Of a stretch of DNA of 64,000 nt, positions 16,936-32,243 are shown one piece after another. The position numbers and the translations under genes are program-made. Every line of letters starts with the position of its first letter. Position 1 is the first letter of the stretch. The stretch is from Cellulomonas timonensis (lineage in GTDB: Bacteria; Actinomycetota; Actinomycetes; Actinomycetales; Cellulomonadaceae), in NCBI RefSeq assembly GCF_900046455.1, contig NZ_FCOT01000011.1:248001-312000 (forward strand). Reading direction: 5' to 3'. A model generated the notes under the pieces. That model saw only the letters and a list, made by a program, of their open reading frames with translations, had not been told where the DNA came from and ran no database searches.

Positions 16936-17463
16936 ATGCGGGCTCAGCACACGCGGCGCAGGGTGTTCGGCGCGGTCGCGCTCACCGTTGCGCTCGCGGC
17001 TTCGGTCATGTGGTCGTGGCAGCCCTCGACGCCCCTCGACACGGCGTCAACGGCCGTGACGGCTGGGCTGCGCGTTGGCGAGACGGTGGAGATGCCCGAC
17101 GTCGGGGCGGGTGTCGCTGCTCGGGTCGACAGGGTCGAGCCGCTCTTCCGGTGCCCGGGTCGGTGGTGGCAGCCCCGGGGGACAGGGGTCCTGTTCAGCG
17201 GCCCGGTCACGCGGGTGACAGTGACAGTCCGTGGGATACCCGAGGTGGTCGGCGTGAGCCCGCGTCGCTCGTGGGCTGCGCTGAACGTGTTGGGTGACGC
17301 CTACACGGGGCCGACGGCGTGTGAGTGCGACGAGAGTTGCGAGGTGGAGCCGGTGACGACCGCGGACGGGCTGCGCTACACCGTGGTGTTCTTCACGGGT
17401 GGGACGTTCTCCGGCCTCGCGTTCACACCCGAGCCCGGCCAGCGCTTCGAATGGACGCTCTGA
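16936..17463 (+). CDS. Membrane-anchored or secreted protein, unknown
   Basis: 175 residues with a basic N terminus (MRAQHTRRR), one hydrophobic segment (VFGAVALTVALAASVMW), and an extracytoplasmic domain of about 135 residues that looks beta-rich. Cysteines occur in LFRCPGRW and in the CECDESCEVE cluster, suggesting disulphides. ATG at 16936 follows GGGGAGG at good spacing. No family was recognised. It stands alone between the MocR gene and the convergent ynfA-like gene. Confidence 0.72.
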   Translation: MRAQHTRRRVFGAVALTVALAASVMWSWQPSTPLDTASTAVTAGLRVGETVEMPDVGAGVAARVDRVEPLFRCPGRWWQPRGTGVLFSGPVTRVTVTVRGIPEVVGVSPRRSWAALNVLGDAYTGPTACECDESCEVEPVTTADGLRYTVVFFTGGTFSGLAFTPEPGQRFEWTL

Positions 17464-17878: not shown

Positions 17879-17894
17879 TGTGACGCGGGTCACG
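17879..17894. promoter_or_regulatory. Crp/GlxR-type box upstream of paralogue A
   Basis: TGTGA-N6-TCACG matches the Crp-family half-sites TGTGA/TCACA with one mismatch. It lies about 100 bases before the ATG at 17996. An equivalent box at nearly the same distance precedes the paralogue at 29451. A second block shared by both promoters lies at 17939-17975. Confidence 0.65.
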
Positions 17895-17995
17895 CCGTGG
17901 GTCCAGCCGAAGTGACGGCGGCGGAAGTGGACTTCGGGTGGGATGCGGGGGCACGCGGGCCAGCAGCGGACCGCCGGATCTCATCTGGGGGATCG

Positions 17996-19471
17996 ATGCC
18001 CGAGCTCGACGTCGAGGAACTCTGGATCGCGTGGGTGAACAGCGCCAACGAGATGGACGAGTTCGTGCTGGTCTCCGACCTGCTCGAATCGGCGGCGGCT
18101 CGCGGCCACGGGGACGGGATCGAGCTCGGGCGGGCGAGGGCCGCAATCCTCGCAGGGCGTCCTGCCCTGGCAGCAGGCCTCCTGGCAGACGTCGACCGCT
18201 CAGTCCTCACCAACAGTGAGCTCACATGGCGTGACGTCACCGCGATGGCGGCGTGGGCTGCGCTGGGTGATGTCGAGGCGCTCGAAGCGCTGGTCCGCGC
18301 GGGTCAGCACACCGACGGGCCGCGGAAGGCGAGCCACCTGTACCTCCTGGCCGCCGCAGCGGAGCAGGCAGGTCAGCTCGACCTGGCCGACGCCGTGTGG
18401 AGGGAGCTCTCGGAGACGACGAACCTGACGTCGGCCGTGCTCACGCCGAACATCGTCGCCGACATCCTCCAGCGCTCGACCACTGACCCTGGCCTGGCTG
18501 CTGGGACGCTCGGCAAGGCAGCGCGCGAGGTCATCGAGCTGATTCCGATGCCCGAGGACAGCCTGCGTCCGACACTCGACGTCGTGGCGCGGCTCGAGGC
18601 CCGTGGCGACCGTGCCGGGGCCTGGCTCCTGCTCGAGGCGATGTCCGCGCTGCGACCTGTCGCCAAGGGCCTGGGCCCCCTGCGTAAGGAGCGCTCGTCG
18701 GGTGGCGGGTGGTGGTGGGAGCGGCTCCCGGGGCTCATGGCGGTGGTGGCCGCGGCCGTGATCACCGTCGCTGGGACGTTGAGGGGGCTCCCCAACGGGT
18801 TCGCGCTCGGCAGCGTGCTCTTCGCGGTCGCGGTGTGGAAGCTGTGGCGCCTCCCGCAGGGGAGGGGCCTCTCCGGTGTCGACCCCGTCGTGCTGGCCGC
18901 GGTGCGCAGGCTCCTGCCGGACGTCGTGTCCGAGATCCCCGCGCGGATCCGGACCGTCGCGGCGCACATCACCGGCGGCGGGATCGGGCTCCTCTGGGCG
19001 ATCCTCGTCGTGAGCCTGTGCACCGAGCTGCTGCTGACGGACCTCTACGACGCGAACCGCGAGACCAGCGACGCGATCATCTTCCCGTTCATCGCGCTGT
19101 GCACGGTGATCGGCGGCATCGTCGGACCCCGCCAGCTCCGGCGCCTGCAAATCGCGTCCGCGCGGCAGCTCGTGAACACGCGACGGGCCGCTCAGGTGAT
19201 TCCCGCGGGCCAATGCGTGTGCGTGAGCTCGAGCCGTATGCGCGACATCAAGGCCGAGAGGTACCTCGCCGACCACCTGCGCGCCCCCCAGCCCGATGTC
19301 GCCGCGGCCGTGCCCGTCATCCCGTCGGCCACGCTCACGGCGCACCAGTGCCCCCTGTCGAAGACGCCGTGGCTCGAGGTGCGCCGGCCAGATAGAGAGG
19401 TGCTGCTGCTCAGGGGCGCCCTCGCCTACGTGTCGGACGAGAGCGAGGACACGGTGGGCGGCTACCTCTGA
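17996..19471 (+). CDS. Paralogue A of an unrecognised 491-residue membrane protein family
   Basis: No known family was recognised. The N-terminal half (about 1-235) is soluble, Ala/Leu-rich and helical, looking like degenerate TPR/HEAT repeats: WVNSANEMDEFVLVSDLLESA, GRPALAAGLLADVDRSVL, WRDVTAMAAWAALGD. Two hydrophobic segments follow (about 245-285), then a linker and two more (about 325-385). The C-terminal cytoplasmic or exposed domain (about 385-491) has CVCVSS, HQCPLSKTPW and a terminal DTVGGYL. The ATG is preceded by GGGGGAT. The same length and layout recur at 29451-30926, with near-identical motifs (MDEFV, RPALAAGLLADV, HQCP-S-TPW, VGGYL). Expression is probably under a Crp-type regulator. 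Confidence 0.8.
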   Translation: MPELDVEELWIAWVNSANEMDEFVLVSDLLESAAARGHGDGIELGRARAAILAGRPALAAGLLADVDRSVLTNSELTWRDVTAMAAWAALGDVEALEALVRAGQHTDGPRKASHLYLLAAAAEQAGQLDLADAVWRELSETTNLTSAVLTPNIVADILQRSTTDPGLAAGTLGKAAREVIELIPMPEDSLRPTLDVVARLEARGDRAGAWLLLEAMSALRPVAKGLGPLRKERSSGGGWWWERLPGLMAVVAAAVITVAGTLRGLPNGFALGSVLFAVAVWKLWRLPQGRGLSGVDPVVLAAVRRLLPDVVSEIPARIRTVAAHITGGGIGLLWAILVVSLCTELLLTDLYDANRETSDAIIFPFIALCTVIGGIVGPRQLRRLQIASARQLVNTRRAAQVIPAGQCVCVSSSRMRDIKAERYLADHLRAPQPDVAAAVPVIPSATLTAHQCPLSKTPWLEVRRPDREVLLLRGALAYVSDESEDTVGGYL

Positions 19472-19500
19472 GGCGCGTGCCGGCGGCGGTCGCGGCCTGC

Positions 19501-19830
19501 TCAGCCCGGTTGCAGGTCGAGCACCACGTCGAGATCGGCGTCGTCGAACGGCAGCAGGCACGCCCGCAGGTTCGCGCGGTGCTCCTCATCGATGGGGAGC
19601 GTCGACGCGTAGGCGACCTTCCTCGCACGCTCGAAGTCCTCGGACTGCATCGCGTAGACCAGCAGCAGGCCGTCGCCGGTGTCGATGAGCGCGGCGGTCT
19701 CGTGGTCGATGCCCTCCTCGATGAGCGTGGCCTCGGCCTCGGCGCGACGCGGTCCCTGAACCTCGGCGAACCAGTCACGGAGCCGCTGCTCCTGGCCGGG
19801 CCTGACGCGGCGGATGGTCAGGTCGATCAT
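19501..19830 (-). CDS. DUF6176 family protein
   Basis: 109 residues, predicted cytosolic, beginning MIDLTIRRVRPGQEQRLRDWFAE and continuing RAEAEATLIEEGIDHETAALID and LLVYAMQSEDFERARK, then PIDEEHRANLRACL. This matches the small DUF6176 family, a dimeric alpha-beta-barrel-like fold of unknown role. ATG at 19830 follows GGAGGAA at good spacing. It is convergent with paralogue A and divergent from the HNH gene. Confidence 0.85.
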   Translation of the reverse strand: MIDLTIRRVRPGQEQRLRDWFAEVQGPRRAEAEATLIEEGIDHETAALIDTGDGLLLVYAMQSEDFERARKVAYASTLPIDEEHRANLRACLLPFDDADLDVVLDLQPG

Positions 19831-19954
19831 CGGGTTCCTCCGGGCGGATGGCGTGGCGGAGCGAGCCCGCCACCCTAGCCACACGCCGACAACGGGGGAC
19901 AGGCCTGCTGGCATCTCTCCGAGCGACGACCTGGCCCACCGGTGTGTCCACAGG

Positions 19955-20971
19955 ATGGCGCGCCGGCAGATGAGGGATCGTGCTCCCGTGGTGTTCACCG
20001 AGCGCGACTACCTCGACCTGACCTTGGGTGATGCCCAACGTCAGTGGCAGGGCATCGCGGCGCGACGGGCGGTGCCGACGGGCAGCAGACAGGTGGCGTT
20101 CGTGCCCGTCGAGACACTGCTGTGTCTGGCGGCGATGTATGTGGTGGACCATTCGCGTTTCGGAAGCAGTTCGGCCCACCGCGCTCCCGATCCGATACAG
20201 CAGCTGGGCCGGCTCTTCAAGCGGCCGCCGTCCAGCATCCTCGCCAAGATGGCGAATTTGGACGGCAGCCGGGCGCATGGAGCTCGATTCGACCTCCTTG
20301 CCGGCGCGACACTGCGCTCGGACTCGGCTCGCATGGCCGAGGTCTACCGCACGATTCTCGCGGGCGCGCGATCTGCCGGGATCGGTGAGGAGCCCTTGCC
20401 CGACTTTCTGCACATCGAGCGCGGCGGCGTTCTTGAACTGCTCGGGCAGGAGGAGCTCGCCGACAGTTCCACCGAGGCATCGCTGGAACGCGAGCTCCAA
20501 CAGTGGGTCGAACTGCAGGGTGACCTGCCGGAGTCGGTCACTGAGCGGCTCCTGTGGGCCCGCGTCCGAGTGGGGCAGCACCGCTTCGCCAAGGACGTGC
20601 TGACCAACTGCGGCAGTGCGTGCGTGTTCTGCGGCTTCGCGATGGGCGGTGCCGTGGGCCCGAGCCTGCTTCGCGCGAGCCACATCAAACCGTGGCGGGA
20701 CTCCAACCATCGAGAGCGCCTCGAGGTGACGAACGGCATCGCTGCCTGCCCGACACATGACGCGGCGTTCGACGTCGGGCTCATCACCGTGGACAGCGAT
20801 CTGACAGTGCATCGCTCTGGTCGGCTGCGATCGGCGATGGCACACAACGAGGCAGTGCGCCGCGCGTTCGAGCCGGGGGCAATGCGGGCCTCCATCGCGC
20901 TTCCCTCCGATGCTGTCGCCCCGGGGAGGGTCTTCGTCGACTGGCATCGCGCCAACGTCTTTGCGGCGTAG
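19955..20971 (+). CDS. HNH endonuclease with N-terminal restriction-like domain
   Basis: 339 codons. The N-terminal domain (about 1-150) contains LGRLFKRPPSSILAKMANLDGSRAHGARFD, a pattern found in putative HNH restriction enzymes of Actinobacteria. The C-terminal HNH core (about 205-290) has CVFCGF, LLRASHIKPW and GIAACPTHDAAFDVG, with the catalytic His in SHIKPW and Asn/His in the NGIAACPTHDAAFD helix. Start uncertain: ATG 19955 and ATG 19970 lack good ribosome sites, while GTG 19988 has GAGGGA at the right distance. No methyltransferase gene is adjacent, so a modification-dependent (type IV-like) or orphan nuclease is possible; that is inference. Confidence 0.85.
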   Translation: MARRQMRDRAPVVFTERDYLDLTLGDAQRQWQGIAARRAVPTGSRQVAFVPVETLLCLAAMYVVDHSRFGSSSAHRAPDPIQQLGRLFKRPPSSILAKMANLDGSRAHGARFDLLAGATLRSDSARMAEVYRTILAGARSAGIGEEPLPDFLHIERGGVLELLGQEELADSSTEASLERELQQWVELQGDLPESVTERLLWARVRVGQHRFAKDVLTNCGSACVFCGFAMGGAVGPSLLRASHIKPWRDSNHRERLEVTNGIAACPTHDAAFDVGLITVDSDLTVHRSGRLRSAMAHNEAVRRAFEPGAMRASIALPSDAVAPGRVFVDWHRANVFAA

Positions 20972-21079
20972 GCGGTCCGGGCCGTCCGCCCGCCCTGCGT
21001 GGATGCAGGCATTCGCACCTCGTGACGCTGGCAGGGCGGCAGTAACGTCAGCGGGAGCGTCCGATCCGCGAGGAGTCCG

Positions 21080-22216
21080 ATGACCGCGCACCGTCGTCCC
21101 GCCCGGCTCGCCGTGACGCTCGCGGCTGGCGTGATCGCACTGCTCACCGCGTGCACCGGCGCGGGCGATCCGACTCCGTCGCCGTCGGATGCCAGCCCGC
21201 CTGCGACGGGCCCCACCACCGCTGGCCCGTCCACAGCATTGATGCCCACCGGCGTCCCGCAGCCCATCGCCACCGGCCTCGACACCCCGTGGTCCGTCGC
21301 GTTCCTCGAGGGGACGCCGTTGGTCAGCGAGCGGGACACCGCCCGGATCCTCGAGCTCGCGCAGGACGGCGCGGCGCGTGAGGTGGGGGTCGTCGAGGGA
21401 GTGGTGAGCCGGGGCGAGGCCGGGCTGCTGGGCCTGGCGGTCGATGATCAGCGGCGCCTGTACGTGTACTCGACGGCGGCCGACGGCAACCGCGTCCAGC
21501 GGTTCGACGTCTCAGGGGAGCCCGGCGCGCTGAGCCTCGGCGAGCCGACGACGCTCATCGACGGTCTGCCCGCCGCGGGCAACCACGACGGCGGGCGGCT
21601 CGCCTTCGGCCCCGACGGGATGCTCTACGCGACAGTCGGGGACGCGGGCCGCCCCGACAGCGCCCAGGACCTGGACTCGCTCGCGGGGAAGATCCTGCGG
21701 ATGACCCCCGACGGCGACGTCCCCGCCGACAACCCCTTCGACGACTCCCTCGTGTACAGCTACGGGCATCGCAACCCGCAGGGCCTGGCATGGGCGCAGG
21801 ACGGCACGATGTTCGCCACCGAGTTCGGGCAGGACACCTGGGACGAGCTGAACGTCATCACCGCTGGCGGCAACTACGGCTGGCCCGTCGTGGAGGGCAT
21901 CGCCGGCGAGGAGGGCTACCTCGACCCGGTGCAGCAGTGGAACCCGGACGTCGCCAGCCCCAGCGGCATGGCGCACGTCGACGGGACGCTGTTCCTCGCC
22001 AACCTGCGCGGACGCGTGCTGCGGGCCGTCCCCGTGAGTGACCCCGGGACGTCGACGGACCTCTACTCCGGCGAGTACGGGCGCATCCGCGACGCGGTGC
22101 TGGCGCCCGATGGGCGGCTGTGGTTCGTCACCCAGAACACCGACGGGCGCGGCGATCCAGGGCCGGACGACGACCGCATCCTCGCGGTGGATCTCGCGGT
22201 GGCGCCCACGCCCTAG
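21080..22216 (+). CDS. PQQ-dependent sugar dehydrogenase-like lipoprotein
   Basis: A secreted soluble aldose/sorbosone dehydrogenase-fold protein, lipid anchored: signal peptide with lipobox LLTAC (Cys near residue 25) and a Ser/Pro/Thr linker. The six-bladed propeller covers about residues 60-370, with GLDTPWSVAFLEG at the start, GEAGLLGLAVDD, NHDGGRLAFGPDGMLYATVGDAG and SYGHRNPQGLAWAQDGTMFATEFGQDTWDELN. The His and Arg residues that contact PQQ and glucose in this family appear present. The family oxidises aldoses, but many actinobacterial members have no proven substrate. GAGGAG precedes the ATG. Confidence 0.93.
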   Translation: MTAHRRPARLAVTLAAGVIALLTACTGAGDPTPSPSDASPPATGPTTAGPSTALMPTGVPQPIATGLDTPWSVAFLEGTPLVSERDTARILELAQDGAAREVGVVEGVVSRGEAGLLGLAVDDQRRLYVYSTAADGNRVQRFDVSGEPGALSLGEPTTLIDGLPAAGNHDGGRLAFGPDGMLYATVGDAGRPDSAQDLDSLAGKILRMTPDGDVPADNPFDDSLVYSYGHRNPQGLAWAQDGTMFATEFGQDTWDELNVITAGGNYGWPVVEGIAGEEGYLDPVQQWNPDVASPSGMAHVDGTLFLANLRGRVLRAVPVSDPGTSTDLYSGEYGRIRDAVLAPDGRLWFVTQNTDGRGDPGPDDDRILAVDLAVAPTP

Positions 22217-22364
22217 ACGGCGATCGCACCACGCGGGAAATCACGGGTCAGGTGGGTGGCATTTCCGTTACGTTCCACGGGGTCGTGTCGTGCCGAGGCC
22301 CGGAGAGCACTCGCTGGCGGCGGCAACGCGTTCGGCCGCAGCCGTCAGCAACGAAGGAGCCCCT

Positions 22365-24274
<1,910 letters not shown>

Positions 24275-24278
<4 letters not shown>

Positions 24279-26056
24279 ACGACGTCCTGTTCTGCCTGGG
24301 CCGGCTGTTCGCGATCGGATGGCGGCTCGACCGTCGGCGGCTCGTGGTCGGCGGGAGCCTGCTGCTGCTGGGCGCGGTCGCCACGCCGCTCGTCGCGCTC
24401 GGCGCCGGGCGCCTCGTGGACGGCGTGCTCGAGGGTGATGCCGGGCGGGCGACGGGCTGGGTGGTCGTCGTCGCGCTCGCGTTGACGGGCGAGCTCATGC
24501 TCGGGCACTTCGCGCACCTGTACTACTTCGAGCTCGCGGAGCTCACCGAGGAGGAGTTCAACCGGCAGCTGCTCCGGCTGGTCAACGGCCCGCGCCACCT
24601 CGACCGCGCCGACGATCCCGCGTTCGCGGACCGCGTCGACCTGCTGCGCCAGGACGTCATGCAGATGCGCACGACGGTGCACCTCGGGCTCCAGCTCGGC
24701 GCCACGTGCGTGCAGGTGCTGCTGACGGCCGTTGTGTTGGCGACCGTGTCGCCGTGGCTTCCGCTGCTCGCGGTCGTCGCGGTGCTGCCGGTGCTGGTCG
24801 GCCGTCGCGCCGAGACGGGGCTCCAGGCTGTGCGCGAGGAGCAGGCGCCTGTCACCCGGGCCATCCGCTCGCTGCGCGGGCTTGCGGCGAGCCCGGCGTC
24901 GCAGAAGGAGATCCGGCTCAGCGGCGGCGCGGACTTCATCGTGGAGCGGCAGCGGGCGCTGCTCACCTCCTATGGCTCCGCGATGTCGCGGGCCGACGTG
25001 CGGTACGCGTTGCTGCGCACCGGCGGGCAGCTCGCGTTCGGCGTCGCGTACGCGGGCGCTGTCGTCGGGGCGTTCGCGCTGGCCCGCGACGGGCGCGCGA
25101 GCGTCGGCGACGTGGTGCTGACGATCACGCTCGCCACGCAGCTCAGCGTGCAGATGTCCGCGGGCGTCGAGCTGCTCGGCTCGGTGCATCGCGCGTCGGC
25201 GGGCCTGCGGCGCTTCGTGGCTCTCGCCACCGAGGTCGCGGCCGATGACGAGGCGCCGGCCACCGACCCACTGCCCGCCGACACCGGCGACGGCATTCGG
25301 ATTGAGGGCCTCACGTTCCGGTACCCGGGCTCCGAGCGCACCGTCCTCGACGGCGTCGACCTGCACCTGCCCGCGGGCGCGTCGGTGGCCCTCGTCGGTG
25401 AGAACGGCGCCGGCAAGAGCACGCTGCTCAAGCTCCTCGCCGGCCTGTACCGGCCGACGTCCGGGCGCATCCTGATCGGCGGCTCCGACCTCGCGGCCGT
25501 CGAGCCCGACCGGTGGCGCGAGCGCACCGCCGCCCTCTACCAGGACTTCGCGCGCGTCGAGCTCTCGCTCCAGCAGAGCATCGGCATCGGCCGCGTGGAC
25601 TCCGTCGACGCCCCGGAGCCCGTCCGTGCGGCCCTCGCCCGCACCGGCGCCCCCCTCGCCGACGAGCTGGCGCTCGGCGACGTGCTCGGCATCGGCTACG
25701 ACGACGGACGCGAGCTGTCGGGCGGGCAGTGGCAGAACATCGGCTTCGCGCGGTCGCTGATGCGCGACGACCCGCTGCTGCTCATCCTCGACGAGCCCGC
25801 GGCGGCCCTCGACGCGCTCGCGGAGCAGCGGCTCGTCGACGCCTACCAGTCCACAGCGGCAGAGGTCGCCGCGCGGGTCGGCGGCGTCACGCTGTTCGTC
25901 ACCCACCGCATGTCGACGGTGCGGCTCGCGGATCGGATCGTCGTGCTCGACGGGGGGCGCGTCGTCGAGCACGGCACGCATCCCGAGCTGATCGCGGCCG
26001 ACGGCCGGTACGCCGAGCTCTGGGCGCTGCAAGCACGGGCCTACGCGGAGTCCTGA
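24275..26056 (+). CDS. ABC transporter, fused permease/ATPase, subunit 2
   Basis: Partner of the preceding gene, translationally coupled by a 4-base ATGA overlap. 593 residues: six-TM domain (about 20-310) and nucleotide-binding domain (about 345-585) with Walker A GENGAGKSTLLKL, signature LSGGQWQNIGFARS, Walker B LLILDEPAAALD and switch His in LFVTHRMSTVRLADR. Catalytic glutamates are present in both subunits, so neither site is obviously degenerate. The next gene starts 30 bases later behind its own palindromic operator. Confidence 0.93.
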
Positions 26057-26067
26057 TCCACCGGGCG

Positions 26068-26087
26068 ATGTGTACGCTCGTACACAT
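26068..26087. promoter_or_regulatory. Perfect 20-base palindrome overlapping the acetyltransferase start
   Basis: Nine-base arms (26068-26076 and 26079-26087) with a 2-base centre. The palindrome contains a -10-like TACGCT (26073-26078) and ends in the first two bases of the ATG at 26086. No Shine-Dalgarno site is present, so the message may be leaderless. The TetR gene downstream is the obvious candidate repressor. Confidence 0.75.
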
Positions 26088-26673
26088 GACGACGACTGAC
26101 TACTTCGCGGGCGACGACCGGACCAACCACGAGCGCATGCTCGCCGGCGACCTGTACATCGCCGACGACCCGGCCATCGCCGAGAGCCAGAAGAAGGCCG
26201 TCCAGCTCGCCGCGCGGTTCCAGGCCGCCTACGACCAGGACCCCGACGCCGGCCAGCGCGTCGCGCGCGAGCTGTTCGGAAGCCTCGACGAGACCGCCTT
26301 CGTGCGGGCGCCCGTCTACGTCGACTACGGCGACCAGATCACCGTGGGCCCCCGCACGTTCATCAACATGGGCCTGACGGCGCTCGACGTGGCGCCCATC
26401 AGCATCGGCGCCGACTGCCAGATCGGCCCGCACGTGCAGCTCCTCACGCCCACGCACCCCGTGGAGCCGCAGCCCCGCCGCGACAAGCTCGAGGCCGCGC
26501 AGCCCATCACCATCGGCGACAACGTGTGGCTCGGGGGCGGCGTCATCGTGTGCCCCGGCGTGACGATCGGCGAGAACTCCGTGATCGGCGCCGGCTCGGT
26601 CGTCACCAAGGACATCCCCGCGAACGTCGTGGCCGTCGGCAACCCCGCGCGCGTCATCCGCGAGAACATCTGA
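26086..26673 (+). CDS. Sugar O-acetyltransferase (Maa/LacA/NodL type)
   Basis: Trimeric left-handed beta-helix enzyme that transfers acetyl from acetyl-CoA to sugars such as maltose or galactosides. 195 residues: N-terminal cap with ERMLAGDLYIADDPAIAESQ, hexapeptide repeats from about residue 75, VYVDYGDQITVGPRTFINMG, the catalytic His in LLTPTHPVEP, and the C-terminal VWLGGGVIVCPGVTIGENSVIGAGSVVTKDIP. The ATG lies inside a palindrome and has no ribosome site, which suggests a leaderless transcript. It is followed after two bases by its probable TetR repressor. Confidence 0.93.
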   Translation: MTTTDYFAGDDRTNHERMLAGDLYIADDPAIAESQKKAVQLAARFQAAYDQDPDAGQRVARELFGSLDETAFVRAPVYVDYGDQITVGPRTFINMGLTALDVAPISIGADCQIGPHVQLLTPTHPVEPQPRRDKLEAAQPITIGDNVWLGGGVIVCPGVTIGENSVIGAGSVVTKDIPANVVAVGNPARVIRENI

Positions 26674-26675
26674 CG

Positions 26676-27251
26676 ATGCCTCCCACGGAGGCCGCCCCCG
26701 ACGCCCGCACCCGCCGCCACGACCCCGGGCGCCGGGACCGGATCATCGAGGCGTGCATCGAGGTGATCGCCGAGGACGGCGTCGACGGCACCTCCCACCG
26801 CCGCGTCGCCGCCCAGGCCGGCGTGCCGCTGGGCTCGATGACGTACCACTTCACCGGTCGGGACGAGCTGCTGCGCGAGGCGTTCACCCGATTCGCCACC
26901 GCCATGTCCGAGCGGTTCGCCGCGCGGCTCGGCCAGGTCGAGCCGGGGGACCGTGAGGGCGGCGCCCAGGCGGTCGTCGACATCATCTTGCGCGACGTGT
27001 TCCCCGACCGGCGCGAGCTCGTGCTCACCCACGAGCTGTACACCCTCGCGGCCCGTGACCCCGCCTACCGGGATCTGACGAACGCGTGGATGCGCCGTAG
27101 CCGCGCCGCCCTCGAGCGGTGCTTCGACCCGGCGACCGCGCGCATCGTCGACGCGCTCATCGAGGGGATGACCATCCACCGCGCCCTCGACACGCAGCCG
27201 CATGACGACGCCGACGTGGAGCTCGCGGTCCGGCGCATCACCGCGGCATGA
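26676..27251 (+). CDS. TetR family transcriptional regulator
   Basis: 191 residues: N-terminal helix-turn-helix (about 18-65; DRIIEACIEVIAEDGVDGTSHRRVAAQAGVPLGSMTYHFTGRDELLREAF) and an alpha-helical ligand domain with no recognisable ligand signature. It starts two bases after the acetyltransferase stop and is likely cotranscribed with it. The 20-base palindrome over the acetyltransferase start is the natural operator, giving an autoregulated pair. The inducer is unknown. Confidence 0.92.
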   Translation: MPPTEAAPDARTRRHDPGRRDRIIEACIEVIAEDGVDGTSHRRVAAQAGVPLGSMTYHFTGRDELLREAFTRFATAMSERFAARLGQVEPGDREGGAQAVVDIILRDVFPDRRELVLTHELYTLAARDPAYRDLTNAWMRRSRAALERCFDPATARIVDALIEGMTIHRALDTQPHDDADVELAVRRITAA

Positions 27252-27294
27252 CGCGCACCCCTGCGGCGTTGCGTGCGGCCGCATCCGACGCCTA

Positions 27295-27326
27295 CCCTCC
27301 GGATTCGCGCGCGCGAACCCGGAGGG
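27295..27326. promoter_or_regulatory. 32-base palindrome containing the LacI gene's ribosome site
   Basis: The sequence is self-complementary over 32 bases except one mismatched pair (27303/27318), with a CpG-rich TTCGCGCGCGCGAA core (27304-27317). The 3' arm includes the GGAGGGG that serves the ATG at 27336. It may be an autoregulatory LacI-type operator, an RNA hairpin that hides the ribosome site, or the terminator of the TetR unit. Confidence 0.65.
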
Positions 27327-27335
27327 GCTGAGTCC

Positions 27336-28367
27336 ATGGCGACGATCGGTGAGGTGGCGCAGGCCGCCGGGGTCTCCCGCAGCACGGCGTCCAACGTGCT
27401 CTCCGGCAAGAAGGCGACCTCCCTGGAGATCCAGCGGCGCGTGCGCCGCGCCGTCGAGGAGCTCGGGTACACGCCCAACGCCGGGGCCCGCGCCCTCGCC
27501 ACCTCGCAGACTCGCGTGATCGGGCTGCTCGCCCACTTCTTCGACGACGAGTTCGCCCCCGCGATGCTCCAGTACATCCTCGGGGTCTCGAACACCGCCC
27601 GGGAGCTCGGGTACGACATTCTGCTGGTCTCGGAGGCGGACGGCGCCCACGCGCTCAAGCGGATCACCGATTCGCTCATGGTGGACGGCGTCGTGCTGCT
27701 CAACGTCGCGGACCAAGACGACAGGCTCGACGTGCTGCGCGCGGCCAAGCGCCCCGGAGTGCTCGTCGGGCTGCCCGGGGACCCCACCGGCGTCGACGTC
27801 TTCGATCTCGACTTCGCCGAGGCCGGCCGCCTCATGGTCGAGCACCTGGCCCGGCTCGGGCACCGCGAGCTGCTGCTCGTGTCGCAGCCCGACCACGTCG
27901 TCGAGCGCGGCGGCGCCTATGTGTGGCGGCTGCGCGACGCCGCCCTGGCAGAGGCCCGGACACGTGGCCTCGCCCTGCACGCGGTGTCCGGCGCGTCGAG
28001 CCAGCCACAGGTCGGCGAGGACATGCGCGCGGCCCTCGACGCCCACCCTGGCGTCACCGGGCTGCTGGTGAACAACGAGGCCGCAGCCGCCGCCCTGCCA
28101 TTCGTGCTGCGCGAGCGCGGCCTTGAGGCGCCCCGTGACATGTCGGTGATCGGCCGCTACTCCAACGAGTTCGCGCGCACCTTCTCGCTGCCCTTCAGCT
28201 CGATCGAGAGCGCGCCCGACCGGCTCGGCCAGCTCGCGGTGCGGCAGCTCGTGCGGCGCATCGAGTCACCGGACGCGCGGGAGGCCGCGCACGGGGTGTG
28301 GTTCATCTCCCCGGAGCTCGTGGACCGGGGCAGCACGGGTGCGCCGCGAAGCGTCCCCTCTGACTGA
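27336..28367 (+). CDS. LacI family transcriptional regulator
   Basis: 343 residues: N-terminal LacI headpiece (MATIGEVAQAAGVSRSTASNVLSGKKATS, hinge helix about residues 48-58) and a periplasmic-binding-protein-like ligand domain (about 60-335). Such proteins control sugar or nucleoside use. The GGAGGGG ribosome site sits in the arm of a 32-base palindrome. No sugar operon is adjacent; the convergent neighbour is the arginase-like gene, 11 bases away. The GH3 gene at 44797 has a LacI-like palindrome, but a link is speculative. Confidence 0.93.
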   Translation: MATIGEVAQAAGVSRSTASNVLSGKKATSLEIQRRVRRAVEELGYTPNAGARALATSQTRVIGLLAHFFDDEFAPAMLQYILGVSNTARELGYDILLVSEADGAHALKRITDSLMVDGVVLLNVADQDDRLDVLRAAKRPGVLVGLPGDPTGVDVFDLDFAEAGRLMVEHLARLGHRELLLVSQPDHVVERGGAYVWRLRDAALAEARTRGLALHAVSGASSQPQVGEDMRAALDAHPGVTGLLVNNEAAAAALPFVLRERGLEAPRDMSVIGRYSNEFARTFSLPFSSIESAPDRLGQLAVRQLVRRIESPDAREAAHGVWFISPELVDRGSTGAPRSVPSD

Positions 28368-28378
28368 CTGGCTGGACG

Positions 28379-29305
28379 TCAGCGCCGCTGGGGCGCCAAC
28401 GCCTGCGCGATCCCGTCGACCAGGCGCGTCGCTGACGCGTCGTCCAGATCGTGGTCGGGGTTGTACTCCACGAGCGTGAGCCCGCTGAACCCCGGCTCGG
28501 CCACCAGCGGGGCGAGCAAGGCGACGAGGGTGTCGAGGGTCAGCCCACTGCCGTACTGGGGGATGTCGGGACCGGGCAGCAGCAGCGCATCGAGCACGTC
28601 CACATCGACGTGGACGACGAACCGCCGCGCTCCATCGGGGCCGGCGGCCACTGCGGCGACCGCCCGGGCGGCGGCCCCCGCCGGGTCCGCGGTCGCCTCG
28701 TCGGCGGGCACGCGCACGCTCGGCGCCAGCCCGTGCACGTCCTCGTCGTCGTCGGCGTACCCCAGGAAGCACACGGCACCCGGCGCCAGCAGCGGTTGCC
28801 GCGGCCCTCGGCCGGCTAGCTCGGCGACCGCGCCGGGCAGGTCGAGCAGGTGCGCGACGCCCATGGAGTCGAGGATCGGCTCATCCGGGTTGTCGGCGGG
28901 CAGGTGCAGGTCCTGGCCGCCGTCGATGTAGACGAGGCCGATGTCCCCGTGGACGCGCACCGCCGCGGCGACCAGCGCCAGGGCGACCGTGCACTCGCCG
29001 CCCAGCACGAGTGGCGTCTCGCCGCTGGCGATCACCTCCGCGATCGCGGGCTCGGCATCGTCCAGCACCTCCAGCACCCCGTCGACGTCATGCGGGCGGC
29101 CGGTGACGAGGGGGAGGGCGCGCCACCGCGCGATGGGCCGGTCGCCGTGGTCGGTGACGTGGAGGCCCGCTTGCTCGAGCGCCGCGATCAGCCCTGCGGC
29201 TCGGAGCGCCGCCGGTCCTTGCTCGAGTCCTGGCCAGTGCGCTGCACGGCTGGACGGCACGCCGAGGACTCCCCAGCGTCGGGCGGTGGCGGCCGGTGGT
29301 GTCAT
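28379..29305 (-). CDS. Arginase/agmatinase superfamily protein with altered metal site
   Basis: 308 residues of ureohydrolase fold. The usual Mn-binding motifs are changed: GGDHS is GGECT (His to Cys), DAHxD is DGGQD (His to Gly), while HVDVDVLD keeps two Asp ligands. GLEQGPAALRAAGL matches the N-terminal substrate loop of the family. Two of six metal ligands are therefore non-canonical, so classical arginase activity is doubtful. ATG at 29305 is chosen because similarity starts at RRWGVLGVPSS. It is divergent from paralogue B, and the Crp-type box at 29339-29354 lies in the shared gap. Confidence 0.85.
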   Translation of the reverse strand: MTPPAATARRWGVLGVPSSRAAHWPGLEQGPAALRAAGLIAALEQAGLHVTDHGDRPIARWRALPLVTGRPHDVDGVLEVLDDAEPAIAEVIASGETPLVLGGECTVALALVAAAVRVHGDIGLVYIDGGQDLHLPADNPDEPILDSMGVAHLLDLPGAVAELAGRGPRQPLLAPGAVCFLGYADDDEDVHGLAPSVRVPADEATADPAGAAARAVAAVAAGPDGARRFVVHVDVDVLDALLLPGPDIPQYGSGLTLDTLVALLAPLVAEPGFSGLTLVEYNPDHDLDDASATRLVDGIAQALAPQRR

Positions 29306-29338
29306 CACACGAACGTAGGGGGTGAAGGCCGCGGCGAG

Positions 29339-29354
29339 TGTGACGCAGGTCACT
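29339..29354. promoter_or_regulatory. Crp/GlxR-type box upstream of paralogue B
   Basis: TGTGA-N6-TCACT matches Crp half-sites with one mismatch. It lies about 97 bases before the ATG at 29451. The block GGGATGCG...CGCG.GCCA.C.GCGG.CCGCC follows 43 bases later (about 29397-29433), against 45 bases in paralogue A, so the whole promoter layout is duplicated. Confidence 0.65.
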
Positions 29355-29450
29355 CTTCACTCCGGCGATGCGCCTGCGGCGACCAGCGGAATCCGCTGGG
29401 ATGCGTGTACGCGAGCCAACGGCGGCCCGCCTGACGCACCGGACGGGACG

Positions 29451-30926
29451 ATGTCGAAGATTGACCGGAATGAACTGCTCGACGGCTGGGCCACCAGTGC
29501 CGCCCGGATGGACGAGTTCGTCATCGTGTCCGACATCCGCGAAGCCGCTGCCGCAGGCGCCGGAGCCCACGACATGGACGCCGAGCGGGCGAGGGCGGCG
29601 ATCTTGGCCAGGCGCCCCGCGCTCGCAGCAGGCCTGCTCGCGGATGTCGAGCGGTCCGTGCTCACCGCCACGAGCCACTCGTGGCGGGATGTCATCGCGA
29701 TGGCCGCGTGGGCGGCCCTCGGCGACGCCGACGCGCTCTCCGCGCTGCACCGCGCCGGTCAGAACATCGACGGCCCCGCCATGGTCGTCCACCGGTACCT
29801 GCTCGCCTCAGCCGCGGATCAGGCGGGCCGGACCAAGCTCGCCGACAGCGTGTGGCAGGACCTGGCCGAGGTGACCGAGGCGACCATGCTGGTGACCCGA
29901 CGGAAGATCGTCGCCGATGTGATCCGCAGGTCCACCTCGGACTCGGGCGCGGCGGGCGCGGTGATCGGACGGTCGGCGCGCGTGCTCATCGAGCTCCCTC
30001 CCCTCCCCGAGGACGACCTACGGCATGTGCGTGATGTCGTCACCCAGCTCGAGGCGCGGGACGATCACGCCGGGGCGCTGCTCATACTCGAGGCGATCGC
30101 CGCGCTGCGACCCGTCGCGAAGGAGGCCCGCCCCCTCCTCAAGGAACGGGCTCGTGGGGGCGGGTGGTGGCGTGAGCGCATCCTCGGGCTCGCCGCGGTG
30201 GTGGGCGCGACAGCACTGGCCATCGTCTGCACGCTGACGGGCCTGTCCCACTGGGTCTCGCTCGCAGGCGCCCTGGCGGCGTTCGCGGTCTGGCGCGAGT
30301 GCCGGCTTCCGCAGGGCCAGGGGCTGTCGCCGGTCGATGCTCGCGTGCTGGCCGAGGTGCGCGCGCTGATGCCCGACGTCGCGGGGAGCCTGCCCGATCT
30401 GGCCCGCAGGATCGGGGGCGTCATCACGGGTGGGACGCTTGCCTTCCTCGCGGGTGTCGCGTTGGCGACCCTCGTCACCGAGGTGCTCATCGTGGACGTC
30501 TACCGGGCGAACGTGGAGACGTCGGACGCGATCGCATGGCTGCTGATCTTGATGCTCACGGTGATGGGCGGCGCCGCGGGCCCGCACCTGCTGCGCGTGG
30601 CGCAGAGGCCCGCCGCGCGCAAGTACGTGGACCAGGTGCGGTCCACTCAATTCCAGCCCATCCGCGGCTGTGCGTGCCTCACCACCGTGGGCATCCGCGG
30701 CGCCGACGCCAAGCGGTACGCCTCGCGTCATCTGCGCGAGGCCGACCCGGAGGTCGCCGCGATGGTCCCCACGATCACGCGGGCCACCGTCAAGGCCCAC
30801 CAGTGCCCCGACTCGCAGACGCCGTGGCTGGCGGTGCGGCTCCCCGGCCGGGAGGCGATGATCTTCCGGGGGACGCTCGTGCGCGTGGCGGACACGCAGG
30901 GCGACGCGGTGGGCGGCTACCTCTGA
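29451..30926 (+). CDS. Paralogue B of an unrecognised 491-residue membrane protein family
   Basis: Exactly as long as the protein at 17996-19471 and collinear with it. It has a helical N-terminal half (WATSAARMDEFVIVSDIREAA, RRPALAAGLLADVERSVL, WRDVIAMAAWAALGD), two hydrophobic pairs (about 245-285 and 325-385) and a C-terminal domain with GCACLTT, AHQCPDSQTPWLAVRLPGREA and a final GDAVGGYL. Sequence identity is moderate, so the duplication is not recent, yet motifs and promoter layout are kept. Function is unknown; a membrane sensor or scaffold is possible. The next gene encodes a membrane protein with HExxH. Confidence 0.8.
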   Translation: MSKIDRNELLDGWATSAARMDEFVIVSDIREAAAAGAGAHDMDAERARAAILARRPALAAGLLADVERSVLTATSHSWRDVIAMAAWAALGDADALSALHRAGQNIDGPAMVVHRYLLASAADQAGRTKLADSVWQDLAEVTEATMLVTRRKIVADVIRRSTSDSGAAGAVIGRSARVLIELPPLPEDDLRHVRDVVTQLEARDDHAGALLILEAIAALRPVAKEARPLLKERARGGGWWRERILGLAAVVGATALAIVCTLTGLSHWVSLAGALAAFAVWRECRLPQGQGLSPVDARVLAEVRALMPDVAGSLPDLARRIGGVITGGTLAFLAGVALATLVTEVLIVDVYRANVETSDAIAWLLILMLTVMGGAAGPHLLRVAQRPAARKYVDQVRSTQFQPIRGCACLTTVGIRGADAKRYASRHLREADPEVAAMVPTITRATVKAHQCPDSQTPWLAVRLPGREAMIFRGTLVRVADTQGDAVGGYL

Positions 30927-30998: not shown

Positions 30999-32243
30999 GT
31001 GACCTCTCCTCCTGACGACCTGCCGCGCTCGCCCACGGGCCGGGTGCCCCAGTGGGTCGTCGATGAGGCGAGGGGGGTCCGGGTCGATCCGGCGGGATGG
31101 CGCGCCCCGGAGCCGACTCGGAGGCGGAGGCCGGACCGGCGTGGGCGGGGGCGCGGCGTCGCGGTGGTCGTCAGCCTCGTGGCCCTGGTGCTCGCCGTCG
31201 CGTGGTGGCTGCAGAGCGGCGCGCCGGGGCTGCAGTACGGCGTGGGCAGGCTGCTCGACCCCGATCCCTCGCAGGGCGCCCCGGTGGAGCCGTCGGCCGA
31301 GGCCATCGCGTTCGCGCAGGAGGCGCACCTGACGGAGGAGGGGAGCCAGCTCTTCTACAACGCCCGCCCGGAGCTCCTCGGCGCGGCGGAGTTCGTGGGC
31401 CGTTGCGTCGACGACGTGGGGGTGCCACGGGTGCGGGCGGACGGGGCCGTGGGCTGCTACTCCAGCGGCGCCAACAGCATCGTCGTCTACGTGCCGGCGG
31501 ATCCGCGCCTGCGCGGGTTCGCGGTGGAGACCGTGGCCCATGAGGCGTTGCACGCGGCCTGGGATCGGTTGGCGCAGGACGAGCGCGACCAGCTCACGCC
31601 CCTCCTCGAGGCCGAGCTGGCGGCCGTCGCCGCGGACGACATGATCCACCTGCAGCTCGCCGGCTCTGTGGGCGACCATCCCGAGAACCGCCCGACGGAG
31701 TTGTTCGCCTACCTGGGGACGCAGGTCTGGCATGACGGCGGCCTCCATCCCCGCGTCGAGGAGGTGTACGCGCGGTTCATCGCGGACCGACCAGCCCTCG
31801 TGGCAGTGCATGAGGGGTGGGGCGCGTTGCTCGACGGCCTCGGGGCGGAGGTCGACGCCGCGTCGCAGGCGCTCACCGCCCAGGAGGCGGCCAACGGCCA
31901 GGAGCGTGCACAGCTCACCGCCGACGCCGAGTCGGTGGAGTTCTACCGCCGCAGCCACCAGGAGAAGGTCGCCGAGCTCGCCGCGATGCGGGCGGAGCAG
32001 CGTGAGGGGCTGCGGTTGTCGTGGGAGTGGTGGGACGGCACGCCACTGCCGATGGCGGCCGCCGACAAGACGCTCGCCAAGGCCGCCGCGTTGCTGGCGC
32101 GGGACGACGTGGAGCTGCCGGCGCGGGACGCCGTGATCCGCGCCGCCGAGGAGGCCGCCGCTGCGGAGCGCCTCCGCGTCCAGGCGCTCGTCGACGACGT
32201 GAACGCGTTGCAGGCGCAGCTCGACCCGGCCTCGGTGGGGTAA
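30999..32243 (+). CDS. Membrane-anchored protein with HExxH (putative zinc protease-like)
   Basis: 414 residues. A basic, Pro-rich N terminus (about 1-50) precedes one transmembrane segment (VAVVVSLVALVLAVAWWL). The outer domain contains VETVAHEALHAAWDRL, a zincin-type HExxH near residue 183, and PTELFAYLGTQ about 50 residues later, whose Glu could be the third ligand as in gluzincins. The C-terminal 150 residues are a coiled-coil-like Ala/Glu/Arg-rich region. GTG at 30999 has no clear ribosome site; other starts are possible. Protease activity is inferred from the motif only. It lies 72 bases after paralogue B on the same strand. Confidence 0.72.
   Translation: MTSPPDDLPRSPTGRVPQWVVDEARGVRVDPAGWRAPEPTRRRRPDRRGRGRGVAVVVSLVALVLAVAWWLQSGAPGLQYGVGRLLDPDPSQGAPVEPSAEAIAFAQEAHLTEEGSQLFYNARPELLGAAEFVGRCVDDVGVPRVRADGAVGCYSSGANSIVVYVPADPRLRGFAVETVAHEALHAAWDRLAQDERDQLTPLLEAELAAVAADDMIHLQLAGSVGDHPENRPTELFAYLGTQVWHDGGLHPRVEEVYARFIADRPALVAVHEGWGALLDGLGAEVDAASQALTAQEAANGQERAQLTADAESVEFYRRSHQEKVAELAAMRAEQREGLRLSWEWWDGTPLPMAAADKTLAKAAALLARDDVELPARDAVIRAAEEAAAAERLRVQALVDDVNALQAQLDPASVG

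Follow-up and report, generated by a model that had tools for sequence, protein, structure and literature searches.

The 64,000-nucleotide stretch of the Cellulomonas timonensis genome that was analysed (contig NZ_FCOT01000011.1, positions 248,001 to 312,000; hereafter the window) carries two genes, P0001 (copy 1) and P0002 (copy 2), whose products are best explained as paralogous members of an undescribed, lineage-restricted family of putative cytoplasmic-membrane proteins. Comparison of upstream regions gives good support for two predicted promoter types in this family, a Crp/GlxR-type box in the clade of the window genes and a WhiG/FliA-type element before most members elsewhere. The reading that best joins the evidence, held tentatively and with slightly less than even confidence, is that these proteins form a membrane-anchored scaffold resembling tetratricopeptide repeat (TPR) proteins, which belonged to an ancestral WhiG/type IV pilus regulon, was moved once to Crp-type control and has been duplicated in this host.

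Extent of the protein family

The two open reading frames are each exactly 491 residues long and collinear, as an earlier note on this DNA had described, with 53 % amino acid identity across residues 2-491 (E 2.5e-149), and both translations contain the common peptides MDEFV, RPALAAGLLADV, HQCPxSxTPW and the terminal VGGYL that it had listed. As the members of their clade span 489 to 494 amino acids, the identical length of the two copies is nothing special. A search of the 4.06 Mb host genome returned P0001 and P0002 as the only paralogues. The family had been called unrecognised, and a profile search with both proteins agrees: no Pfam or NCBIfam model scored above its curated cut-off, and neither PHROGs nor PADLOC holds an entry for P0001 or P0002. 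For P0001, Pfam gave TPR_16 at E 1.1, below cut-off. Across 20 scanned members the Pfam matches were scattered and weak, with TPR_14 in 5/20 (E <= 1, best 5.5e-4), PUCC in one member at 2.5e-4, slightly better than TPR_14, and other families weaker still, while NCBIfam yielded two weak families (best E 0.0026 and 0.0063). A sequence search of solved structures gave three matches, which were taken as chance (E 0.1-0.67).

Relatives were detected by single-protein search in 17 of the 221 genomes of the host's taxonomic family, and a 20-row profile matched 37 of the same 221, thirty of them strongly (E <= 1e-20) and seven weakly or partially. Named carriers include Cellulomonas cellasea, whose member belongs to the clade of the window genes, and two further Cellulomonas spp. 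An order-wide sample gave a match in 20/396 genomes; outside the taxonomic family these were convincing only in three genomes of one genus (L185-L187), and the remaining matches there (E 1e-4 or worse) were taken as chance. The paralogue pair that had been proposed is thus real, but it forms part of a wider family. A viral, phage or defence origin was rejected, since viral contigs, searched with the close-clade alignment only, contained no relative, and neither PHROGs nor PADLOC had a counterpart. A second family-like frame of 309 amino acids, comprising only the membrane and C-terminal parts and ending in VGYYL, starts at base 439 of locus L039 in genome G020.

Crp/GlxR-type boxes in the clade of the window genes

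Promoters were scored for 34 members with usable upstream DNA, nine in the clade of the window genes and 25 outside it; L024-L037 and L045, being second copies of loci already in the set, were excluded. The TGTGA-N6-TCAC box reported about 100 bases upstream of each window gene was located with its centre 109 (copy 1) and 104 (copy 2) bases before the ATG (Table 1). Within 200 bases upstream, the top-scoring box matched 8-10 of 10 consensus positions in all nine clade members, from eight genomes, and the promoter likeness noted for the two copies hence extends to the orthologous loci. Shuffled upstream regions reached a score of at least 8 in 1.7 % and of at least 9 in 0.04 % of 4500 trials. 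In a smaller control of 60 shuffles each over 230 bases, the observed score was reached in 0/60 for seven of the nine members, and in 2/60 each for copy 2 (L002) and L003. Among the 25 members outside the clade, the best Crp-type box was found in L012, where a match of 8/10 lies 11 bases ahead of the anchor position, and all others scored 7 or below. The predicted clade boxes resemble in sequence those of the actinobacterial Crp/GlxR regulon, for which the GlxR consensus is given as TGTGA-N6-TCACA (PMC7999487), and they lie at a distance that would suit activation.

The second conserved block that had been described is likewise present, 45 and 43 bases past the box in copies 1 and 2. Depending on the member it starts with the hexamer GGGATG, GAGATT, CAGACT or CACAAT, picked by eye from the clade upstream alignment. 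The distance from box centre to hexamer centre is 44, 44, 45 and 46 bases in L005, L006, L009 and L008, with a further hexamer copy at 40 and 41 in L009 and L008, respectively, and 54, 55, 55, 56 and 56 bases in L002, L007, L010, L001 and L003. These two spacing classes, approximately one helical turn apart, would fit an activator bound to one face of the DNA, although they are suggestive only. The block would most simply be the core promoter of the clade genes.

A genome-wide scan for the Crp-type motif located 16 distinct TGTGAN6TCAC places in the host genome (21 rows, versus 3 for a reversed-pattern control), two of which are the boxes of the window copies. A third box of this kind lies within the window at 939-953, TGTGACGGAGGTCAC. 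Some of the places precede what are presumably citrate-synthase-, thiolase-, ROK-, glycosidase- and adenosine-deaminase-like genes. A palindromic Crp-type box also occurs at L182, around positions 402427-402442 of contig C12 of the host genome (G000), between genes taken to be FlgN/FlgK-like and a FliA frame, and suggests Crp-type control of flagella in this genome. Furthermore, a 9/10 box precedes xerC-whiG in the host genome; only 8/10 strings occur at this position in G028 and G006, and none was found before whiG in G102. A possible Crp control of whiG itself is used for none of the readings below.

WhiG/FliA-type sites and proposed promoter history

Members outside the clade of the window genes appear to carry a different promoter element. 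Using the WhiG-type pattern CTCAA-N15/16-GCCGATG (12 positions), widened after the spacing of the first pattern proved too short for most family sites, a WhiG/FliA-type site at 10-12 of 12 was found in 19/25 of these members, including L185 from another taxonomic family. In 16 of these 19 members, none of 60 shuffles was as good. In L085 and L106, the two loci measured, the start codon stands 7 bases past the site, as leaderless transcripts would have. By contrast, the best WhiG-like score before copy 2 is 9/12, which 12 of 60 shuffles equal, and the two window genes appear to lack a flagellar-type promoter. Crp-type promoters, previously described for the two copies, are a feature of the window's clade (9/9), with mostly WhiG/FliA-type sites elsewhere.

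In a tree of 32 of the 37 collected frames, five under 380 amino acids being excluded, the Crp-type clade forms a single branch with 100/100 support, and the window copies are sisters (95/94). The three promoter labels need four changes on this tree, versus a mean of 11.8 when shuffled. The tree is midpoint-rooted, and the tool warns that the letter composition of the window proteins differs from that of the rest. As there is one Crp-type branch, the window copies are sisters and the same-genus genome G001 carries a single copy, this is read as one promoter change, followed by a later duplication in the lineage of the host. The WhiG-type promoter would be the older state, as its label is spread on both sides of the midpoint root.

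A putative WhiG-type regulon and type IV pili

In the host genome the WhiG-type element occurs at 13 sites, versus one for the reversed pattern. Behind these sites, Pfam identifies two PilT-type ATPases (T2SSE, 9.9e-47 and 2.8e-52; loci L160 and L154), a pilin (N_methyl, 3.6e-9), a LuxR-type regulator (GerE, 1.9e-15) and an Excalibur-domain protein. The genes behind the element were read at all 13 of these sites and at 40 places chosen among the matches listed. At the places read in six other genomes, a PilT-type gene was named by reading in six, a pilin in three and a LuxR-type gene in three, which places a PilT-type ATPase behind the element in seven genomes (L089, L090, L124, L132, L141, L149 and L160), a pilin in four (L081, L125, L142 and L161) and a LuxR-type gene in four (L082, L109, L140 and L162). 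Outside the host genome, Pfam supports two further pilins and a PP2C phosphatase behind the element. At L116 (388 amino acids, no Pfam family), L145, L148, L103 and L122, genes from several genomes directly follow WhiG-type sites and are possibly further members of this regulon. Two sites on contig C9 of the host genome (L152 and L153), which lie some 73 kb from each other on opposite strands, have identical matches and identical downstream frames and represent a repeated segment.

A FliA_WhiG sigma factor scored above the NCBIfam cut-off in 12/12 genomes tested, including the host, six of which have no flagellin match. As it is the only such sigma matched in G028, G060, G102 and G104, which contain a family member with a site and have neither a flagellin match nor a second, flagellar-type FliA match, it is the likely reader of the WhiG-type site. 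A flagellar function as the general role of the family was rejected, as 6/30 strong carriers (G028, G037, G060, G100, G102 and G104) have no flagellin match. Type IV pili of Rubrobacter are reported to be under the control of WhiG (PMC8325347). The predicted promoters described here resemble that regulon of a sigma-28 family (WhiG/FliA) factor in having a flagellar-type element ahead of pilin, PilT-type and family genes, and differ from it in a -35-like part that reads CTCAA rather than TAAA; furthermore, the family is not known to be among the targets of the Rubrobacter regulon. Outside the window's clade, most members thus appear to sit in the same kind of regulon as type IV pilus genes.

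Predicted protein architecture

Each protein appears to comprise a helical N-terminal half, a membrane region and a C-terminal domain rich in invariant residues. The two hydrophobic pairs that had been proposed are borne out by three strong hydropathy segments (about 242-267, 320-353 and 357-381) together with an extra helix at 268-284 in the structure model. In both copies, basic residues exceed acidic ones at 284-323 and from 382 onward, and acidic residues prevail in the outer loop (346-360) and in the N-terminal half. This charge distribution weakly suggests a cytosolic location for both soluble parts. Among the 32 near-full members, R160, C407, C409, H427, L428, C452 and W459 are kept in all, and the C-terminus reads (G/A)-x-Y-(L/I) in 29, the exceptions being L046, L047 and L049. 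The earlier claim that selection acts on both copies is supported indirectly, in that P0001 and P0002 each retain the family-invariant residues. A natural guess would be metal binding, for instance of zinc, by the C-x-C/H/C set.

A structure model built from five sequences is confident only for approximately residues 41-140. The best Foldseek match against PDB had E 0.048, with TPR, PPR and other helical-repeat proteins and several 14-3-3 proteins in the top rows, and the viral structure library held no better match. The fold had been described as helical repeats matching nothing recognised; on weak evidence, the repeats look TPR-like. The family is comparable with TPR proteins (Pfam TPR_14 and related) in its predicted helical, repeat-like N-terminal half and in its weak TPR_14 and Foldseek matches, and differs in the addition of membrane hairpins and a Cys/His tail and in TPR matches that may stay below the Pfam cut-off.

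Table 1. Location of the two genes, their promoter elements and the encoded protein regions in the window
Feature	Position	Strand	Remarks
Crp/GlxR-type box, copy 1, TGTGACGCGGGTCAC	17879..17893	+	9/10 consensus positions
Second conserved block, copy 1, probable core promoter/-10 region	17939..17975	+	Hexamer centre 56 bases from box centre; role inferred
Copy 1 gene (P0001, 491 aa)	17996..19471	+	Open reading frame
Copy 1 helical, TPR-like N-terminal half (about residues 5-230)	18008..18685	+	Model confident only for ~41-140; other members match TPR weakly
Copy 1 membrane region, two hydrophobic pairs (residues 242-381)	18719..19138	+	Hydropathy, three strong segments; fourth helix 268-284 in model
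Copy 1 C-terminal Cys/His domain (C407, C409, H427, C452, W459), ends GGYL	19214..19468	+	Invariant residues
Crp/GlxR-type box, copy 2, TGTGACGCAGGTCAC	29339..29353	+	9/10 consensus positions
Second conserved block, copy 2, probable core promoter/-10 region	29397..29433	+	Hexamer centre 54 bases from box centre; role inferred
Copy 2 gene (P0002, 491 aa)	29451..30926	+	Open reading frame
Copy 2 membrane region (residues 242-381)	30174..30593	+	Hydropathy
Copy 2 C-terminal Cys/His domain, invariant residues as in copy 1, ends GGYL	30669..30923	+	Invariant residues

Neighbourhood of the two genes

Comparison of the window with the neighbourhoods of L021-L023 found only the family gene, its antisense frame and one L021 frame in common, the last matching the two ATP-binding cassette transporter frames of the window at 32-35 % identity, which is read as a common ATPase domain. 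L022 and L023 have several neighbours in common, in a different order. A conserved neighbourhood was rejected on the basis of this comparison. The neighbouring window frames at 30999-32243 (414 amino acids) and 16936-17463 (175 amino acids) had no Pfam match.

Proposed role and alternative explanations

In the favoured scheme, a TPR-like N-terminal half would be followed by a pair of membrane hairpins and by the C-terminal domain, which carries the invariant C-x-C, H, C and W and finishes in an almost constant G-x-Y-L. Such a protein would be a membrane-anchored scaffold, or an assembly or regulatory factor, for a machinery of the cell surface, with type IV pili as the likeliest candidate. Both soluble parts would lie in the cytosol, and the C-x-C/H/C set would bind a metal. 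The ancestral WhiG-type promoter would have been replaced once, in the window's clade, by the Crp/GlxR-type box and second block, so that the two host genes would answer to a cAMP-dependent, Crp-type activator, and thereby to nutrient state, instead of a WhiG-type sigma. We infer the pilus role, the metal binding and the cAMP control, while the promoter types are the well-supported part. In Streptomyces and Rubrobacter the WhiG-type sigma is gated by cyclic di-GMP through RsiG. A more elaborate version, which we regard as unlikely, would make the protein a membrane component of an actinobacterial type IV pilus and dispersal programme with a metal-binding tail and G-x-Y-L as a docking signal, its control passing once from a WhiG-type sigma to a cAMP-Crp-type activator, whose site then shifted by approximately one helical turn between lineages.

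Several observations weigh against the favoured scheme. The WhiG threshold of 10/12 was fixed after the first sites had been seen; three of the 19 sites (L018, L043 and L044) were equalled by 1, 1 and 4 of 60 shuffles, respectively, and 6/25 members outside the clade are without a good site (L011, L012, L038 and L041, and the partial L186 and L187, each 9/12). Copy 1, alone in its clade, has a WhiG-like string as high as 10/12, which lies about 100 bases from the start and overlaps the Crp box. Several other WhiG-type sites in the host genome look like chance, and the call of the ancestral promoter rests on the spread of labels over a midpoint-rooted tree. Gene adjacency does not connect the family with pili: the pilin and PilT-type genes of the host are on contigs other than that of the window, and the eight neighbouring window frames scanned contain no pilus family. 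Co-occurrence with PilT was given no weight, since PilT is present in 30/30 strong carriers and also in every listed genome of the three main genera. The structural evidence is similarly thin, as the models are poor (mean predicted local distance difference test score, pLDDT, of 58.9 for the full protein and 57.7 for the end domain), no fold search fell below E 0.04, and that for the C-terminal domain, with its poor model as the query, found no match (best E 1.8).

The family could belong to the WhiG-type programme without serving pili, as a membrane factor of general use during dispersal or in a stationary or biofilm state, co-expressed with pili because the programme switches on both. WhiG-type sites also precede genes for a PP2C phosphatase, LuxR-type regulators and an Excalibur-domain protein as well as frames without a Pfam family, and this non-pilus company counts against a dedicated pilus role. 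Moreover, pili can do without the family, since PilT is found in 141/221 genomes of the taxonomic family versus 30/221 with strong family matches. However, PilT-type and pilin genes are the commonest recognisable mates at the places read, and we consider this alternative rather doubtful, if a serious one. A role as a membrane-bound sensor of redox state or metal is improbable in our estimation; in such a protein, comparable to the zinc-containing anti-sigma factors, sensing would fall to the C-x-C/H/C tail, and the TPR-like half would bind a partner, for example a regulator. The invariance of C407, C409, H427 and C452 in 32/32 near-full members and the possible cytosolic location of both soluble parts would suit such a sensor, but its tail has no family or fold match, and no regulator gene recurs next to the family gene when three orthologous loci are compared with the window. 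The likeness of the two promoters might, finally, be a functionless residue of duplication, and some of it will have been inherited, given that the window copies are sisters; yet the box is present in 9/9 clade members, whose proteins have diverged until only 41-53 % of residues are identical to those of copy 1, and the spacings between box and hexamer form two classes approximately one helical turn apart. This explanation is considered very improbable.

Implications

Beyond what had been noted for the two copies, the analysis adds a wider family, a WhiG/FliA-type element that most of this family has in common with type IV pilus genes, and the presence of a Crp-type box in its place in the window's clade. 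The family represents an unannotated group of proteins with a strikingly invariant Cys/His end domain, and a clear case of a promoter that has apparently moved between two second-messenger-linked systems. In relatives of Cellulomonas, sequence comparison outlines a WhiG-type regulon that would include type IV pili, and which is directly testable.

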